A stretch of DNA of 64,000 bases from Halopseudomonas nanhaiensis (GTDB taxonomy: Bacteria; Pseudomonadota; Gammaproteobacteria; Pseudomonadales; Pseudomonadaceae), in the NCBI RefSeq assembly GCF_020025155.1, contig NZ_CP073751.1, positions 62,001-126,000 on the forward strand, in the 5' to 3' direction. The position numbers and the translations under genes are program-made. Positions 21,385-29,294 of the stretch are shown here, piece by piece. Below the pieces are notes generated by a model. It was not told where the DNA came from, did not search any database, and worked only from the letters and a program-made list of their open reading frames with translations. How positions within the stretch are numbered: position 1 is the stretch's first letter; each line of letters starts with the position of its first letter.

Positions 21385-21471
21385 TCCAGGGCAAAAGGAT
21401 GTAACACTCCCGCGCGGCGGTTGTCCCATGTACAGGCATCGAACAGGATGGCTTCATGGTTACACTGCCGC

Positions 21472-22467
21472 ATGCGTGATCCGCTTATCGTTCCGACAGA
21501 CGAAGGTCTCTACTGTCCGGCGGGGGATTTTCATATCGATCCCTGGCGCCCGGTGGCGCGTGCCGTCATCACCCACGCCCATGCCGACCATGCGCGACCG
21601 GGCAATACCGATTACTTCTCCCAGCATGCTGGACTGCCAATACTCCGCCACCGCCTGGGCGAAGGGCACGTCTTTCACGGCCTGGACTACGGCGAACCGG
21701 CAACCTTCGGCCGCACGCGGGTGAGCCTGCACCCGGCTGGGCATGTGCTGGGCTCTGCGCAGGTCAGGGTCGAGCACGCCGATGGCCGGGTCTGGGTGGT
21801 GACCGGTGATTACAAGCGCGACGCCGATCCGACGTGCGCGCCGTTCGAGGTCGTCCAGTGCGACACGCTGATTACCGAGGCCACCTTCGCTCTGCCCTGC
21901 TATCGCTGGCCCCCGGTCGAGCGCGTCGCCGAGCAGATATGGAGCTGGTGGTCCGGCCACACCGATCGCCCCTGCGTGCTGTTCACCTACGCGCTAGGCA
22001 AGGCGCAGCGGGTGCTGGCCGCACTGGCAGCGCATACCGATCGTACCGTCTACCTCCACGGTGCCATGCTGGCTATCACCGATATATACCGCGACGCGGG
22101 CATTGCGATGGTTCCGACCGCCCCGGTGAGCGAGTTGCCGGCCGATCATGATTTTGCCGGCGAGTTGATCCTCGCCCCGCCCTCCGCCGCCGGCTCGCCG
22201 TGGATGCGCCGCTTCCGCGGTGCCAGCACCGGGTTCGCCTCCGGATGGATGCGCATACGCGGCAACCGTCGACGCCGCGGCTATGACCATGGCTTCGAGC
22301 TCAGCGATCATGCCGACTGGCCAGCGCTGTTGCAGACCATTGAAGAAAGCGGCGCCGGTACCATTCTCACTACCCATGGGCGCAGCGAAGAGCTGGTGCA
22401 CTACCTGTGTGAACGCGGTGTCGACGCGCGGGCGCTGACCACTCTGTACGGCGGAGAAGACGACTGA
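21472..22467 (+). CDS. Ligase-associated metallo-beta-lactamase/beta-CASP exonuclease (Exo)
   Basis: A 331-residue MBL-fold nuclease of the ligase-associated exonuclease family (TIGR04122-like). The metal motif THAHADHARPG sits near residue 40, further ligands lie in LHPAGHVLGSAQ and VTGDYKRD, and the C-terminal LSDHADW and TTHGRSEE motifs are present. Start 21472 (MRDPLIVPTDEG) is preferred because the upstream in-frame extension has no conserved character. It overlaps the ligase gene by one base and is first of a four-gene repair cluster. In the equivalent P. putida cluster the four proteins are Exo, ligase, Lhr-core helicase and MPE. Confidence 0.88.
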   Translation: MRDPLIVPTDEGLYCPAGDFHIDPWRPVARAVITHAHADHARPGNTDYFSQHAGLPILRHRLGEGHVFHGLDYGEPATFGRTRVSLHPAGHVLGSAQVRVEHADGRVWVVTGDYKRDADPTCAPFEVVQCDTLITEATFALPCYRWPPVERVAEQIWSWWSGHTDRPCVLFTYALGKAQRVLAALAAHTDRTVYLHGAMLAITDIYRDAGIAMVPTAPVSELPADHDFAGELILAPPSAAGSPWMRRFRGASTGFASGWMRIRGNRRRRGYDHGFELSDHADWPALLQTIEESGAGTILTTHGRSEELVHYLCERGVDARALTTLYGGEDD

Positions 22468-24062
22468 TGCAGGCGTTTGCCAACCTGTATGCCGAGCTCG
22501 ACGCGACCACGCGCACCCAGGCCAAGCTTGATGCCATGGTGCGCTACTTCACTGACGTCGATCCGGCCGACGGCGCCTGGGCCACCTATATTCTGGCCGG
22601 CCGCAGGATGAAGCGGCTGGTTGGTCCGCGCAAGCTTCGCGAGTGGCTGAGCGAGGCCGCCGGGCTGCCCGACTGGCTGGTGGAGGAAACCTATCAGCAT
22701 GTGGGTGACCTGGCAGAAACTATCAGCCTGCTGATGGAAGATGATCGCGAGCGTACAGTTGTCGGCGGCTCGCTTGCCGAATGGATCGACAGCGCGGTTC
22801 TCGGCCTGCTCGACCTCGATGAAGACCAGCGCAGGGCGCATGTGATCCAGCATTGGCGCGAGCTTCCGCGGCCTGCGTGTTTTCTTTACAACAAGCTGCT
22901 CACTGGGAGTTTGCGGGTCGGCGTCTCGCGCGGACTGGTCGAGCGGGCGCTGGCAACACTGAGCGGCAGGCCGCGGGCATTGATTGCGCGTCGGCTGATG
23001 GGCGAATTCGAACCGACGGCGCGCTTCTATGAATGTCTGTTCGACGCCGAGCAGCGCGAGGAGCGCGCCGGCCAGCCGTACCCGTTCTTCTTGGCTTCAC
23101 CGCTCGAAGGTGGCCCGGAGGCGCTCGGCGATCTGCATGAATGGCTGGCCGAATGGAAGTGGGATGGCATCCGTGCGCAATTGATCGCCCGGCCTGCCGG
23201 GATCTGGCTATGGTCCCGGGGCGAGGAGCCGATGGCCGGGCGCTTTCCGGAAGTCGAAGCGGCGGCGAAGCTGTTGCCGGAGGTGGTGCTCGACGGAGAA
23301 CTGCTTGCCTGGGACACCGACGTCCTGCCGTTCTCGCAGATGCAGCGGCGCATCCAGCGCAAGACCGTGGGAGAGAAACTGCTGCGCGAGGTTCCGGTGG
23401 TCTTCCTGGCCTACGACCTGCTGGAAGATCAGGGCGAAGACTGGCGTGACAGGCCGCTGGAGGAACGCCGCTCGCGCCTGAAAGCCATCCTCGCCGAGGC
23501 AGACCATCCGGCGTTGCGCCTGAGCCCGGCGGCCGAGGCGGCGGACTGGGACGCGCTCGGGGTGATGCGAGAGAGCAGTCGCGACCGGCGCGTCGAAGGC
23601 CTTATGCTCAAGCGCAGGCAGAGCCCATACCGCAGCGGCAGGCCGCGCGGCGACTGGTGGAAATGGAAGATCGAACCGCTGTCGATCGACGCCGTGCTGC
23701 TCTACGCCCAACCCGGGCACGGCCGTCGTGCCAATCTCTACACCGATTACACCCTGGCCGTCGTCGATGGCGACAGCTTCGTGCCGATCGCCAAGGCGTA
23801 CTCGGGCCTGACCGATGAGGAGCTGGGCAAACTCGACCGCTGGATCCGCCGCAATACCGTGGAGCGGTTCGGACCGGTTCGCTCGGTCAAACCTGAGCAG
23901 GTGCTGGAAATCGCCTTCGAGGGCATCCAGCCCTCGCCCCGGCACAAGTCCGGGATTGCCCTGCGCTTCCCGCGCATCCTGCGTTGGCGCCATGACAAGC
24001 CGGTCGCCGAGGCAGATACCATCGAGCAGGTTCGGGAGTTGCTGCGTGTCTATGGCAGCTGA
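22467..24062 (+). CDS. ATP-dependent DNA ligase of the Lhr cluster
   Basis: A 531-residue ATP-dependent DNA ligase (TIGR04120-like). The N-terminal DNA-binding domain precedes the nucleotidyltransferase motif I, EWKWDGIR, with the predicted AMP-accepting lysine at residue 231. Motifs III (VFLAYDLLEDQGED), IV (RVEGLMLKR) and V (WWKWK) follow, then an OB-fold with a GIQPSPRHKSGIALRFPRI-type end. It is additional to the essential NAD-dependent LigA expected elsewhere and probably serves repair. It overlaps both neighbours (1 and 11 bp), indicating tight translational coupling. Confidence 0.93.
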   Translation: MQAFANLYAELDATTRTQAKLDAMVRYFTDVDPADGAWATYILAGRRMKRLVGPRKLREWLSEAAGLPDWLVEETYQHVGDLAETISLLMEDDRERTVVGGSLAEWIDSAVLGLLDLDEDQRRAHVIQHWRELPRPACFLYNKLLTGSLRVGVSRGLVERALATLSGRPRALIARRLMGEFEPTARFYECLFDAEQREERAGQPYPFFLASPLEGGPEALGDLHEWLAEWKWDGIRAQLIARPAGIWLWSRGEEPMAGRFPEVEAAAKLLPEVVLDGELLAWDTDVLPFSQMQRRIQRKTVGEKLLREVPVVFLAYDLLEDQGEDWRDRPLEERRSRLKAILAEADHPALRLSPAAEAADWDALGVMRESSRDRRVEGLMLKRRQSPYRSGRPRGDWWKWKIEPLSIDAVLLYAQPGHGRRANLYTDYTLAVVDGDSFVPIAKAYSGLTDEELGKLDRWIRRNTVERFGPVRSVKPEQVLEIAFEGIQPSPRHKSGIALRFPRILRWRHDKPVAEADTIEQVRELLRVYGS

Positions 24063-26514
24063 CGGACTGGAACGAATCGATGCGTGGTTCGCCGCGTTGG
24101 GCTGGCAGGCCGCCGACTTCCAGCGTCAGGCGTGGCAGGCGTTTCGCGCCGGCCGCAGCGGCTTGATCCATGCCTCGACCGGGTCAGGCAAGACCCTCGC
24201 CGCCTGGCTCGGGCCGGTCTCGCTGGCGCTCGAACAGGATCGGGTACAGAGCGGGTTGCGCGTGCTGTGGATCACGCCGCTGCGCGCATTGGCCAGCGAC
24301 ACCGCTGGCCATCTGCAACAGTCGGTCGACGCACTGGGGCTGGAATGGAAAGTCGAGATTCGCACTGGCGATACCAGCGCGAGCGTGCGCGCCCGTCAGC
24401 AGCGCAAGTTGCCGCAGGCGCTGGTGACCACGCCGGAAAGCCTGTCGGTGCTGTTGTCGTACCGCAATGCCGAAGAACAGTTTGCCGGCCTCGATGCGGT
24501 CATTGTCGATGAGTGGCACGAGCTGCTCGGCAGTAAACGTGGAGTACAGCTGCAGCTCTGCCTGGCCTGGCTGCGCGCCCGCCGGCCGGAGCTACCGGTC
24601 TGGGGATTGTCTGCCACACTGGGTAATCTCGAAGAGGCGCTGAGCGTACTTCTGGGCGAAGGCGCCGAGCCCGGCGAGCGGGTCGCCGGAGCCAGCGGCA
24701 AGGAACTGACCGTCCGCGGGCTGTGCCCGCCGAGCATCGATCGCTTCCCCTGGGCGGGACATCTGGGACTGTCCCAGCTCGAGGGCGTGCTGACCTATCT
24801 CGAGCAGGCGCAGACCTCGCTGCTGTTCACCAATACCCGCTCGCAGGCAGAGCTCTGGTTCGAGGCCATTGCCAGAACACGAATGGACTGGATAACCGAC
24901 ATCGGCCTGCATCACGGCTCGATCGATCGCGGACTGCGCAAGCGGCTGGAAGACGGCCTGCGTGAAGGCAGGTTCCGCTGCGTGGTGTGTACATCGAGCC
25001 TGGATCTGGGCGTGGATTTTTCGCCGGTCGACCGCGTGGTTCAGGTCGGCAGCCCCAAGGGCATTGCCCGCCTGATGCAGCGTGCGGGTCGCTCGGGACA
25101 CCGTCCCGGTGCCGCCAGTGAAATCCTCTGCGTGCCCAGTCATGCCTTCGAGCTGGTTGAAATTGCTGCGGCCCGGCGGGCCTGGAATGCCGGGCGCGTC
25201 GAGTCGCGTCGGCCGCTTCGCCTGTGTCTGGATGTGCTGGCGCAGCATCTGGTGACCCTGGCGGCGGGTCCCGGCTTCCGTCCTGATGCAGCGCTCGCCG
25301 AGGCGCGATCGACCCATGCCTTCGCCGATCTGACGCCCGAAATGTTCGACTGGTGTCTGGTGTTCATTACCCGCGGCGGGCCGGTGCTCGAACACTATCC
25401 GCAGTTCCAGCGAGTGATCGAGACCGAGGACGGGCTGTATCGCGTCGACGATGTGGGTATTGCCAGACGCCATCGCATGGCGATCGGCACCATCACCAGC
25501 GACGCGCAGATGCAGGTGCGCTTCATGAAGGGCGGCAGCCTCGGTAGCATCGAGGAAACCTTTATCGCCCGTCTTAACCCTGGTGATGTGTTCCTGTTTT
25601 CCGGCCGCGCGCTGGAACTGATTCGGGTCCGCGACCTGATCGCCTACGTACGCCCGGCTGCTTCCCGGCGGCAACACGTCCCGCGCTGGTATGGCGGTCG
25701 ACTGCCATTGTCCAGCGAACTGGCCGACAGCGTGCTGCAGATTCTGCAGGAAGTGGAAACCGGAGAGTACGCCGATACCGAAGTAGCCGCCGTCGCGCCC
25801 GTACTCGAGCTGCAGAAAGCGCAATCAGCCCTGCCCGCGCCGGACCGCCTGCTGATCGAACGCTGCCGTTCACGGGAGGGCGAGCATCTGTTCGTCTATC
25901 CGTTTGCCGGCAGGCTGGCGCATGAGGGTCTGGCTGCAGTGCTGGCCTGGCGCCTTGGCCAGCAGGTGCCGGCCACCTTCGCCCTCTCGGTCAACGACTA
26001 CGGCCTGGAACTGCTGAGCAGTGCCCGCCTGCCCGAGCTGGACGAGGCGGCCTGGCGGGCGCTGCTCGCACCCGAGCGTTTACTCGACGACGTGCTCGAA
26101 GCGCTCAATGCCAGCGAGCTGGCTCGCCGCCAGTTTCGCGATATAGCACGCATCAGTGGTCTGGTCTTTCAGGGCTATCCCGGGCGCAGCAAGACCGATC
26201 GGCAGTTGCAGGCTTCCACGGGACTGCTGTACGACACACTGCAGCGTTACGACCCACAGCACCGGCTGCTCGATCAGGCGCGCCGGGAAGTGCTCGAGGA
26301 GCAGCTGGACATTCGGCGACTGCGCGAGGTGCTTGAGCGCGCTGCGGCGCAGCATCTGCGCGTCATGTCGTTGGAGCGCTTCTCGCCGCTGGGCTTTCCG
26401 CTGTGGGTGGAGCGCCAGCGCAGCCGCCTGAGCACCGAAGACTGGCGTCAGAGAGTGCAGCGGATGCTCGAGTCGCTGGAACGTAACGCCAGCAAACGCC
26501 GGAAGCGCGCATGA
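24052..26514 (+). CDS. Lhr-like DEXH DNA helicase, ligase-associated
   Basis: An 820-residue SF2 helicase of the Lhr-core type (TIGR04121-like). Walker A is ASTGSGKTLAAW, motif II is VDEWHELLGSKRG (DEWH instead of DEXH with H/A), motif III lies in GLSATLGN, and motif VI is QRAGRSGHRPG. The C-terminal third holds the winged helix and Lhr beta-barrel domains. Start 24052 (MAADGLERID) lies 11 bp inside the ligase gene; the longer in-frame ORF is a shadow of the ligase. Homologues are 3'-5' translocases that unwind RNA:DNA or DNA duplexes. It overlaps the phosphoesterase gene by 4 bp. Confidence 0.92.
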   Translation: MAADGLERIDAWFAALGWQAADFQRQAWQAFRAGRSGLIHASTGSGKTLAAWLGPVSLALEQDRVQSGLRVLWITPLRALASDTAGHLQQSVDALGLEWKVEIRTGDTSASVRARQQRKLPQALVTTPESLSVLLSYRNAEEQFAGLDAVIVDEWHELLGSKRGVQLQLCLAWLRARRPELPVWGLSATLGNLEEALSVLLGEGAEPGERVAGASGKELTVRGLCPPSIDRFPWAGHLGLSQLEGVLTYLEQAQTSLLFTNTRSQAELWFEAIARTRMDWITDIGLHHGSIDRGLRKRLEDGLREGRFRCVVCTSSLDLGVDFSPVDRVVQVGSPKGIARLMQRAGRSGHRPGAASEILCVPSHAFELVEIAAARRAWNAGRVESRRPLRLCLDVLAQHLVTLAAGPGFRPDAALAEARSTHAFADLTPEMFDWCLVFITRGGPVLEHYPQFQRVIETEDGLYRVDDVGIARRHRMAIGTITSDAQMQVRFMKGGSLGSIEETFIARLNPGDVFLFSGRALELIRVRDLIAYVRPAASRRQHVPRWYGGRLPLSSELADSVLQILQEVETGEYADTEVAAVAPVLELQKAQSALPAPDRLLIERCRSREGEHLFVYPFAGRLAHEGLAAVLAWRLGQQVPATFALSVNDYGLELLSSARLPELDEAAWRALLAPERLLDDVLEALNASELARRQFRDIARISGLVFQGYPGRSKTDRQLQASTGLLYDTLQRYDPQHRLLDQARREVLEEQLDIRRLREVLERAAAQHLRVMSLERFSPLGFPLWVERQRSRLSTEDWRQRVQRMLESLERNASKRRKRA

Positions 26515-27161
26515 AACAGACCCTGGACTGGGTGCTGGCTGATGAACCTGTGATGCTCCACGCGAGCAAGGCGTTGTATCTGCCTCGCTGGTCGACGCTG
26601 CTGGTGGCCGACACGCATTTCGGCAAGGGCGCCTTTTTTCGCAGGCAGGGCATCGCCGTACCGAGCGGGCAGAGCGCGGATGACCTGCGTCGGCTCAGCA
26701 CCCTGGTGGACCAGTTCGAACCGCAACGTCTGATCGTGCTGGGCGACGTGTTCCATCACCGTCCGGCGGCAGGCGAGCCGTTCTTCGACCATTTCGACGC
26801 CTGGCAGGCGCGGCATCGGCAGCTGACAATGGAGGCGGTGGTCGGCAACCACGATCGCCATGTGCGCGGCCTGAGCCTGCCCATCGATTGGCACCCGTTG
26901 CTGGACATCGGACCGTTTCGCCTGTGTCACGAGCCGGAGGCGGTGAAGGGTCGGCACGTCATCGCCGGACACATTCATCCGGCCTACGCGCTTGCAGCGG
27001 GCGGTGACCGGCTCCGCGCCCCTGTGTTCTGGATGCGACCGGGCGTGACGGTGCTGCCGTCCTTCGGCGCCCTGACCGGCGGCTGGAACGTGCCGGAGCA
27101 TAGAGATAGCCGCATGGTGATGGTGCTCGACGACCAGCTGTTGCCACTGCCTGAACTTTGA
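26511..27161 (+). CDS. Ligase-associated metallophosphoesterase (MPE/PdeM)
   Basis: A 216-residue calcineurin-type binuclear metallophosphoesterase (TIGR04123-like). The motif ladder is complete: ADTHFGKG (DxH), LGDVFHH (GD), VVGNHDRH (GNHD) and IAGHIHPAY (GHxH). Its P. putida relative MPE is a manganese-dependent DNA endonuclease acting on single strands. It ends the Exo-ligase-Lhr-MPE operon, and the overlap with the helicase (ATGA) supports joint translation. The next gene starts 79 bp later behind its own LexA box. Confidence 0.9.
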   Translation: MKQTLDWVLADEPVMLHASKALYLPRWSTLLVADTHFGKGAFFRRQGIAVPSGQSADDLRRLSTLVDQFEPQRLIVLGDVFHHRPAAGEPFFDHFDAWQARHRQLTMEAVVGNHDRHVRGLSLPIDWHPLLDIGPFRLCHEPEAVKGRHVIAGHIHPAYALAAGGDRLRAPVFWMRPGVTVLPSFGALTGGWNVPEHRDSRMVMVLDDQLLPLPEL

Positions 27162-27210: not shown

Positions 27211-27226
27211 CTGTATGTCCATACAG
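27211..27226. promoter_or_regulatory. LexA (SOS) box before the radical SAM gene
   Basis: CTGTATGTCCATACAG is a perfect inverted repeat of CTG-N10-CAG form, matching the gammaproteobacterial LexA operator. It lies 14 bp upstream of the ATG at 27241, so LexA would block initiation or the start of transcription. Confidence 0.88.
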
Positions 27227-27240
27227 TTTCGGATGCCGTC

Positions 27241-28455
27241 ATGCAGCTGATCGACAAACTCGCCGTGCTCGCCGACGCCGCCAAGTACGACGCTTCCTGT
27301 GCAAGCAGCGGGGCGCCAAAGCGCAGCTCCAAGGGCAAGAGCGGCATCGGTGCCACCGATGGCATGGGAATCTGTCACAGCTACACGCCGGATGGCCGCT
27401 GCGTATCGCTGCTCAAGGTCCTGCTCACCAACTTCTGTCTGTATGACTGCCAGTACTGCATCAACCGGCGGTCCAGTGACGTACCACGGGCGCGCTTCAC
27501 GCCGGAAGAAGTGGTCAGGCTGACGCTGGATTTCTACCAGCGCAACTACATCAGCGGGCTGTTTCTCAGCTCGGGCATCATTCGGTCGGCCGATTACACC
27601 ATGGAGCAACTGGTGCGCGTGGCCAGGTTGCTCCGCGAGGAGCATGAATTTCGCGGCTATATCCATCTGAAGACGATCCCCGAGGCTGACCCGGCGCTGA
27701 TCGTCGAGGCGGGCCGCTACGCCGATCGTCTGAGCGTGAACATCGAGCTGCCCGACCCGGCCACGCTGATCCGCCTGGCACCGGAAAAGCGCATCGACAG
27801 CATCACCCAGACCATGGGCACGATTGACGATGCCTCGCAGGATTCGCGGGCAGATCGCCGTGCGCCGGCGTTCGCGCCTGGCGGCCAGAGCACACAGATG
27901 ATCGTTGGGGCCGACGCCAGCGATGACCGCACCGTATTATTCAGAGCCGAGTCGCTGTATCGAGACTACCGTCTCAAACGGGTCTACTACTCGGCTTTCA
28001 GCCCGATCCCCAACAGCCCGTCGTCGGTCCCCTTCCAGCCACCGCCGCTGATGCGCGAGCACCGCCTGTATCAGGCCGATTTCCTGCTGCGTGGCTACGG
28101 CTTCAAGGCCGGGGAACTGCTCGGCGAAACACGCGAGCTGTCGCTGGATATCGATCCGAAGCTGGCGTGGGCGCTGGCCAATCGCGAGCAATTCCCCGTC
28201 GATCTGAACCGCGCCGAGGCGGGCATGATCGCCCGCATCCCGGGCATCGGACTGCGCTCGGCACAACGTATTGTCGAGTTGCGTGCCTTGAAACGCGTGC
28301 GATACCAGGACCTGTTGCGTCTGCGCTGCGTGATGGACAAGGCGCGGCCCTTCGTGGTCACCGCCGATTATCGACCGCGCCAGGACACCGTCGAGTCGGC
28401 GGTTTTGCGCACCCACTTGCGTGATCAGCCTGCGCAGATGGGGCTGTGGGGATGA
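27241..28455 (+). CDS. Putative DNA modification/repair radical SAM protein
   Basis: A 404-residue radical SAM enzyme of the TIGR03916 type. The [4Fe-4S] cluster cysteines are C66, C70 and C73 in NFCLYDCQYC (CX3CX2C). Further radical SAM features are LFLSSGI and YIHLKTIP. The C-terminal part has a helix-hairpin-helix DNA-binding motif (MIARIPGIGLRSAQRIVEL), so nucleic acid is the probable substrate. It is controlled by a LexA box just upstream and overlaps the next gene by ATGA. No reaction is established for the family as far as I know. Confidence 0.9.
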   Translation: MQLIDKLAVLADAAKYDASCASSGAPKRSSKGKSGIGATDGMGICHSYTPDGRCVSLLKVLLTNFCLYDCQYCINRRSSDVPRARFTPEEVVRLTLDFYQRNYISGLFLSSGIIRSADYTMEQLVRVARLLREEHEFRGYIHLKTIPEADPALIVEAGRYADRLSVNIELPDPATLIRLAPEKRIDSITQTMGTIDDASQDSRADRRAPAFAPGGQSTQMIVGADASDDRTVLFRAESLYRDYRLKRVYYSAFSPIPNSPSSVPFQPPPLMREHRLYQADFLLRGYGFKAGELLGETRELSLDIDPKLAWALANREQFPVDLNRAEAGMIARIPGIGLRSAQRIVELRALKRVRYQDLLRLRCVMDKARPFVVTADYRPRQDTVESAVLRTHLRDQPAQMGLWG

Positions 28456-29294
28456 GGGTGCTCACCTGCGATGACGACTTCACCCAGTGGCGCAGCCAGG
28501 CGCGCGGTTTGTTGCTGGCCGGGGTCGCGCCGGAGCAGGTCTGCTGGGAAGATGTCGAGGCGCGACAGCTGTTCGACGATCAGCCAAGCGACGGCACGCT
28601 GCCTGTGGTCTCGTCAGGCCCGTCCGTCCGGGTACCGGCCGATCTGCTTCAGGATCTGCAGCTGGCGGGTTGTCATCGCATGCCGGGTCGCTGGAATCTG
28701 CTCTACCGCGTCCTGTGGCGCGTGACGCACGGCGAGCCGGAAGCCCGACTCGCCGGCGACCCGGATGGCAGTGAGCTGCAGCGGCGGATCAAGGCGGTCA
28801 GGCGCGAGGCTCACCACCTGCACGCCTTCCTGCGCTTTCACCCCTGCCCGGTGAATCCGTCGCTGGATTACGTCGCGATTCATGAAGCCGCGCACGACAT
28901 ACTCGGTTGGGCCAGCGAGCATTTCATCGGTCGTCTTGGCAGGCAGCGCTGGATGATCGTGTCCTCGCGCGATGCTGTCTGGTTCGACGGGGAACACCTG
29001 CAGCACCAGCGGAGCTGTCCAGAGCAATGGCGGGCCCTGGCCGACGCGGTGTGTAGCCAAGACGACGCGCTTTGGCAGACCTACTACAGCTGCATCTTCA
29101 ATCCTGCGCGGGTCAACCCGAAAGTGATGCGGGGGCACATGCCGAATCGGTTCTGGTCCGGCCTGCCGGAAGGCAAGCTGATTGCGGGCCTGGTGGGCGA
29201 GGCGCGCCTGGGTGCGCGTCAGGTCGGGCAGGCTGGCAGAGTTTCGGCACAGGGCGGCAAGCGCATCGGCGCCAAGCCGCCCGCCTCCGACTAG
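28452..29294 (+). CDS. DUF4130 (TIGR03915) partner of the radical SAM protein
   Basis: A 280-residue protein of the TIGR03915/DUF4130 family, described as a probable DNA metabolism protein and almost always paired with the radical SAM gene. In some genomes the domain is fused to a uracil-DNA glycosylase domain (UdgX-like fusion). Here the C-terminus is only a short basic tail (GKRIGAKPP) with no glycosylase motifs. The domain contains FLRFHPC and the PHDILGWASEHF-like stretch AAHDILGWASEHF. The start at 28452 overlaps the upstream stop. The stop codon TAG shares the palindrome CTAG with the convergent sco gene. No catalytic residue can be assigned. Confidence 0.85.
   Translation: MRVLTCDDDFTQWRSQARGLLLAGVAPEQVCWEDVEARQLFDDQPSDGTLPVVSSGPSVRVPADLLQDLQLAGCHRMPGRWNLLYRVLWRVTHGEPEARLAGDPDGSELQRRIKAVRREAHHLHAFLRFHPCPVNPSLDYVAIHEAAHDILGWASEHFIGRLGRQRWMIVSSRDAVWFDGEHLQHQRSCPEQWRALADAVCSQDDALWQTYYSCIFNPARVNPKVMRGHMPNRFWSGLPEGKLIAGLVGEARLGARQVGQAGRVSAQGGKRIGAKPPASD

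Follow-up and report, generated by a model that had tools for sequence, protein, structure and literature searches.

What does a radical S-adenosylmethionine (SAM) enzyme do in the DNA damage response when it is encoded directly behind a LexA box, together with a partner of the DUF4130 family? The question is raised by a locus of Halopseudomonas nanhaiensis that lies in a stretch of 64,000 nucleotides (contig NZ_CP073751.1, positions 62,001 to 126,000), hereafter the window, in whose own numbering plain coordinates are given. Our answer is that the gene pair is a variant of a known SOS cassette that lacks UdgX, a cross-linking uracil-DNA glycosylase (UDG), and that comparative genomics gives strong support to its SOS control. 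We consider it fairly probable that the two genes form an SOS unit whose products act directly on damaged DNA bases by radical chemistry. The argument rests on the following features.

27211..27226, + strand: LexA (SOS) box CTGTATGTCCATACAG, recognized by its exact position, its conservation in the family and a peak of information over the box
27241..28455, + strand: radical SAM protein of 404 residues with a C-terminal helix–hairpin–helix (HhH) (TIGR03916, Pfam Radical_SAM)
27298..27402, + strand: cysteines C20, C45 and C54, invariant in alignments, possible ligands of an auxiliary Fe-S cluster
27436..27459, + strand: CX3CX2C codons (C66, C70, C73) of the radical SAM cluster, invariant in alignments
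28195..28287, + strand: HhH, residues 319–349 (Pfam HHH_3, below cut-off)
28452..29294, + strand: DUF4130/TIGR03915 partner of 280 residues (NCBIfam, Pfam DUF4130)

The box ends 14 bp before the ATG at 27241. A preliminary description of the locus had called it a perfect LexA palindrome; the position, the spacing and both 7-base arms hold exactly, and the palindrome is broken by the central TC alone. The single bare CTGT-N8-ACAG core in the 64-kb window, with 0.71 expected, is not significant by itself, and the excess over the whole genome is modest (45 sites versus 28 for a reversed-pattern control); the full CTGTAT-N4-ATACAG arms are present at six of these 45 sites, including the one studied here. 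Inspection of 20 of the 45 sites placed several inside frames; sites of this kind, of which there are many among the 45, are uninformative. The same motif occurs as twin boxes before lexA (G000:C1:2026045, G000 being the window's genome) and also precedes imuA, umuD-like genes and one further gene that we take to be yebG. At L004 (G000:C1:2494936-2498936) the LexA-type box CTGTACGTCCATACAG precedes a gene that by eye resembles an integron integrase and contains an in-frame stop, and at L001 (G000:C1:1408795-1412795) the full-arm box CTGTATTTACATACAG, at position 2001, adjoins no recognized SOS gene, with metG on one side and unidentified frames on the other.

The box is conserved among relatives. 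Of 37 genomes of the genus, 15 encode TIGR03916 (14 above cut-off), as do 174 of 298 genomes sampled from the family (171 above cut-off). Sixty family loci were read, composed of the 14 full-length loci of the genus (the fifteenth, a fragmentary match, was omitted), 25 further best-scoring loci of the family, L065, and 20 loci chosen for other genera. CTG-N10-CAG lies shortly upstream of the start codon in 58 of the 60, although the left arm is degenerate in one of these (L124); no such box was found at L037 and L038, both from one AT-rich genus on a divergent branch. The preliminary description had proposed this survey of TIGR03916 genes and had held that loss of the box from close relatives that keep the genes would speak against damage control; the box is present at all 14 full-length loci of the genus. 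The information content per base is 1.44 bits within the box versus 0.22 outside, a figure in which the six core positions are biased, the rows having been selected by them, and in which unbiased neighbors are conserved too (for example, 2.0 bits at −3). Three loci of the same genus (L022, L023 and L024) encode a much diverged radical SAM protein on a separate branch of the tree (51% identity for L022), and they have a LexA box of the same kind despite this divergence.

Some other lineages have other motifs, and the operator type goes with the host lineage. We scanned named genomes for the best 80 of at least 591 relatives, of which 79 loci were readable. CTG-N10-CAG is found within 60 bp of the start at 21 of 23 gamma- and betaproteobacterial loci versus 61 of 2526 background windows, and the strict CTGT-N8-ACAG at 15 of the 23 versus 2 of 2526. 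At the two remaining loci such a site lies at −77 from the called start (L145) and inside the called start of the gene (L201). At alphaproteobacterial loci the direct repeat GAAC-N7-GAAC or GTTC-N7-GTTC takes its place, within 120 bp at 44 of 48 loci (11 of 2747 background windows) and within 60 bp at 40 of 48 (10 of 4856). GTTC-N4-GAAC, presumably the SOS motif of Verrucomicrobia, is present at two of four loci of that phylum and in none of 308 background windows, and none of these three motifs was seen at the single planctomycete locus. The best-scoring loci of class and phylum searches, a sample that overlaps the scan of named genomes, carry the CTG type (6) or the alphaproteobacterial type (25) in 31 of 35 cases, with both motifs absent from L063, L064, L079 and L100. 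GTTC-N7-GTTC of Caulobacter and the motif of Pseudomonas aeruginosa appear as SOS boxes in PMC9578287.

Xanthomonadaceae provide a fourth motif. Before the radical SAM gene of L151, L164 and L171 (from named genomes) and of L100 the motifs of the other lineages are absent and a palindrome, GTCTCA-N5-TGAGAC, is found; it is also present at L211, L213, L214, L230, L237, L238 and L250. Exact copies are rare, numbering three per genome in Stenotrophomonas, two in Xanthomonas and one in Pseudoxanthomonas with the radical SAM copy included, and copies with one mismatch number 13, 6 and 6, respectively; the reversed control yields none in either count. Other copies precede, in at least one of the three genomes, uvrA, imuA, a PA0069-type radical SAM gene and DEAD/DEAH helicases; SRAP peptidase-like and ribonucleotide reductase subunit-like genes were recognized behind copies by eye, the former with no NCBIfam match at E ≤ 1e-10. 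Several of the one-mismatch copies lie at unrelated genes or within frames. The lexA genes of the Xanthomonadaceae are preceded by different sites (TTAG-type; GTACAAATGTAC), and a copy with two mismatches precedes a lexA-like gene in one genome. From this distribution the palindrome looks like a separate DNA damage operator.

Our phylogenetic analysis of 110 proteins requires five changes of the CTG label, at least three of which are forced by the branches starred in the tree. Loci of Comamonadaceae and similar loci are nested in a mainly alphaproteobacterial part of the tree, yet they are CTG-boxed. The tree is a quick one to which we assigned the operator labels ourselves, the forks that contain these changes have modest support, and some long branches are uncertain. 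Given the forced changes, the simplest reading is gene transfer followed by capture by the LexA of the new host. Since different lineages carry their own LexA-type motifs before the pair, damage control appears to have been conserved through operator replacement, with the operator type following the host lineage. We regard the breadth of this replacement as the strongest new argument: with damage-type operators of four kinds before its gene, the radical SAM enzyme very likely belongs to a genuine DNA damage pathway. A chance box was considered and rejected on the basis of the genome-wide counts, the background windows in other lineages and the 58 of 60 family loci.

An alternative to repair is a programmed DNA modification, in which the pair would install a modified base or alter mutagenesis during SOS. 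The NCBIfam name leaves modification open, imuA is boxed alike in the window's genome and has the Xanthomonadaceae-type box in Stenotrophomonas, and a figure legend of PMC3765255 calls DUF4130 a predicted mutagenesis-related enzyme. However, control by damage fits repair better than it fits a standing mark, which is an argument rather than a result, and we consider modification unlikely.

The two proteins are clear members of their families. The first scores 540.4 bits against TIGR03916 (NCBIfam cut-off 343.5) and matches Pfam Radical_SAM at 1.5e-8, and C66-x3-C70-x2-C73 is invariant in alignments A1 (30 rows) and A2 (63 rows). Three further cysteines, C20, C45 and C54, are invariant in A1, A2 and a 90-row alignment and could possibly bind an auxiliary Fe-S cluster. 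The radical SAM assignment and its CX3CX2C motif, as first proposed, are borne out, whereas the C-terminal HhH falls short of the 27-bit Pfam cut-off in the window's own member (HHH_3, 2.2e-5, 24.9 bits) and is matched at E ≤ 0.01 in 52 of 63 aligned relatives. A profile of the radical SAM protein searched against the PDB finds as its best matches the HhH parts of ComEA and RuvA (E of 0.0089 and up), and no convincing structural relative by sequence.

The predicted fold is that of a radical SAM enzyme, and the nearest rows of the Foldseek and VIA-align comparison are LipA, HydE and BioB, with RlmN rows among them too. These enzymes act on cofactor, RNA and protein substrates, and they raise the prospect that the SOS-induced enzyme acts on RNA or protein and not on DNA. 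The HhH, the fusion of the partner to UdgX and the repeated placement in damage regulons all point to DNA, so that we find this highly improbable.

To our knowledge, radical SAM enzymes that directly repair DNA are few, spore photoproduct lyase (SPL) being the clear case. An SplB-like (SPL) enzyme that reverses thymine dimers would share with the pair a radical SAM domain, SOS control and a link to UDGs; in PMC3765255 the DUF4130 partner is grouped with SplB-like radical SAM proteins, and splB of alpha- and betaproteobacteria is, according to PMC3323433, apparently under SOS control. The nearest folds listed, named above, may speak against this, and SPL is not among the 50 fold matches listed, which by itself excludes nothing. 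Moreover, the window's genome encodes at L008 (G000:C1:2598932-2602932) a radical SAM protein of the PA0069 family (NF033668), with the LexA-type box CTGTCTGGATATACAG at position 2001, about 20 bp before its start. This family, which we take to be SplB-like, may already fill the role. When our profile was compared with this PA0069-type protein, a single sequence, only 16 columns aligned, around CX3CX2C. We consider an SplB-like enzyme very unlikely and prefer a different radical enzyme that acts on damaged bases.

The partner scores 174 bits against TIGR03915 (cut-off 112.25) and matches Pfam DUF4130 at 1.9e-31. Its modeled fold shows a weak resemblance to the DHH phosphoesterase group (RecJ, Cdc45). 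The conserved DUF4130 residues include no DHH motif, no DHH or DHHA1 family appears in the Pfam matches of 50 members at E ≤ 10, and hhalign against the genome's own RecJ (one sequence) gives a probability of 0.2. Searching the PDB by sequence produced no convincing structural relative of DUF4130, the best match being one ribosomal chain (E 0.065), and alignment A3 did not match a piece of an integron integrase, which served as an arbitrary negative comparison. We set the start of the gene at the ATG at 28452; the GTG at 28446 of the open reading frame list is not required. This ATG overlaps the TGA of the radical SAM gene (ATGA), so translational coupling is plausible; of the co-translation claimed in the preliminary description, the overlap is observed and the coupling retains that strength.

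The pair is common: TIGR03916 was found above cut-off in 53 of 299 sampled genomes of Pseudomonadota, and in all 53 TIGR03915 lies downstream on the same strand (within 600 bp in 49, within 3.1 kb in the rest); TIGR03915 without TIGR03916 was found above cut-off in three genomes of this sample. The genome of Caulobacter vibrioides, which served as a control, has matches to both families. A TIGR03914 glycosylase follows DUF4130 directly in 38 of the 53, consistent with the fusion to a UDG that the preliminary description had given for other genomes. Among the 15 without it, one is cut by a contig end and 14 have a DUF4130 frame of at most 343 residues, too short for an additional glycosylase domain. 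The absence of the UDG from the DUF4130 gene of the window, also part of the initial claim, was confirmed and extends to the whole genome, in which TIGR03914 has no match at E ≤ 0.001.

The radical SAM gene was read at 80 loci (79 named, one viral). A tail with motif A of the glycosylase is present in 51, while 24 lack it by pattern and five had no partner that could be read; four of the 24 have tails of 202–257 residues and are perhaps fused, and some are cut by contig ends. GEQPG is found in 50 of the 51 tails and KRRIH or KRRLH in 36, and both motifs are given for UdgX in PMC10359453. Where these motifs could be read, the TIGR03914 glycosylase behind DUF4130 thus appears to be of the UdgX type. 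All 10 named Pseudomonas loci at which the partner could be read have the UdgX-less form, and judged by length, fused and unfused forms occur within the family, even in near relatives (286 residues at L050, 459 at L056). Because both forms coexist and these Pseudomonas loci and the window's genome do without it, UdgX is, on this distribution, an accessory of the pair. An essential role of the glycosylase was ruled out by the window's genome, which has no TIGR03914 match.

The same distribution bears on the proposal that the pair resolves covalent DNA–protein adducts, such as UdgX cross-linked to DNA, with the radical enzyme or DUF4130 freeing the cross-link. The position of the glycosylase directly behind DUF4130 in most of the genomes and the UdgX motifs of its tails would suit such a role. 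However, both genes and the box are kept in the window's genome, which has no TIGR03914, and the Pseudomonas loci consistently have the UdgX-less form; we therefore judge adduct resolution to be quite unlikely and return to a direct action on damaged bases.

We hypothesize that LexA bound at 27211-27226 represses the promoter, as the sequence and its conservation suggest, and that DNA damage, through self-cleavage of LexA, would release both genes, whose products would be made together from the overlapping frames. As the motifs and the predicted fold indicate, a [4Fe-4S] cluster on C66, C70 and C73 would cleave SAM to a 5'-deoxyadenosyl radical and the HhH would hold DNA, and an auxiliary cluster would probably reside on C20, C45 and C54. 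DUF4130, the constant partner, would most likely be the DNA- or lesion-binding subunit. The pair would reverse or radically convert the lesion in the damaged base; a role in DNA repair or modification, put forward in the preliminary description, is supported by context, by the HhH and by the association with UdgX, and the reaction itself is a guess. Where UdgX is fused to DUF4130, it may handle uracil at the same site, for example from a deaminated cytosine in a pyrimidine dimer, a step that would be dispensable, as the window's genome does without UdgX. Cytosines deaminate readily within dimers, and an enzyme that reverses dimers directly would therefore leave uracil exposed, which would explain both the fusion to UdgX and its dispensability.

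In its most specific form this becomes a dedicated two-protein system for radical repair of DNA lesions that is not SPL: a LipA/HydE-like enzyme with an auxiliary cluster and HhH, guided by a catalytically dead, RecJ/Cdc45-like DUF4130, with UdgX as an optional component for the uracil left by reversed deaminated-cytosine dimers, and with its place in the damage regulon maintained across Proteobacteria by replacing the operator again and again. We are cautious about this full scheme and doubt that it is right in every part. The conserved damage control of a radical enzyme and its partner nevertheless points to an unsolved kind of DNA repair. In the UdgX-less version of Pseudomonas the two core genes occur apart from the glycosylase, which opens what the pair does to a direct test and, indirectly, also the so far unexplained part played by UdgX.

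Upstream of the box lies a second set of DNA damage genes.

22467..27161, + strand: ligase-associated DNA damage cluster (TIGR04120, TIGR04121 and TIGR04123 above cut-offs)
22467..24062, + strand: ATP ligase
matched part to 26514, + strand: DEXH helicase
26511..27161, + strand: PdeM

The frame at 21385-22464, at the upstream end of this cluster, is probably its exonuclease, judged by position alone. A PdeM relative lies within 1.5 kb upstream of the radical SAM gene at 9 of the 14 full-length loci of the genus, and none was found near the pair at 11 named Pseudomonas loci (L128-L138, 4 kb upstream read). None of the three genes of the cluster was found at these 11 loci, and a dependence of the pair on it was rejected; the cluster is probably a unit separate from the SOS pair. 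Of 37 candidate stretches on viral contigs, two code for a relative; one of these (L208) is placed next to a Sphingomonas-like row in the tree and is possibly host DNA.

The suggestion that the chemistry of the pair is undescribed was too strong, as the concept and its control are partly in print. The NCBIfam family name already links the radical SAM protein to a UDG, and COG4277, we assume, is the TIGR03916 family. PMC3765255 (2013) connects DUF4130, in the setting of the SOS response, with UDGs and with radical SAM proteins of the SplB-like kind. For a COG1573-COG4277 operon of Bacteroidetes, SOS control has been inferred in PMC8565304 (2021), which also cites reported SOS regulation of a UDG-based system in Verrucomicrobia and Alphaproteobacteria. 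In Acinetobacter, a gene with the annotated name of the TIGR03916 family is reported to be upregulated on desiccation (PMC13130816). The literature searched, which mostly excluded subscription papers, yielded no experimental study of the pair.

Among known systems, the closest is the NCBIfam cassette TIGR03916/TIGR03915/TIGR03914 (rSAM_link_UDG, SAM_7_link_chp, UDG_fam_dom): the window pair matches the first two above their cut-offs and in the same order, and it differs in that neither the gene nor the genome has TIGR03914, the UdgX that is fused to DUF4130 in many relatives. The Bacteroidetes operon is alike in having an SOS operator before a UDG-associated unit, probably with the TIGR03916 family, whereas the window locus has a different LexA motif and no UDG and retains DUF4130 alone. 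The PA0069 family is alike in that its radical SAM gene in the window's genome also has a LexA-type box, but it aligns with the TIGR03916 protein around CX3CX2C only, and the lipoyl synthase, HydE and biotin synthase folds differ in the C-x24-C-x8-C spacing, the HhH tail and the substrate. New relative to these systems are the breadth of operator replacement, the UdgX-less variant, the three extra invariant cysteines and the faintly RecJ/DHH-like fold of DUF4130.

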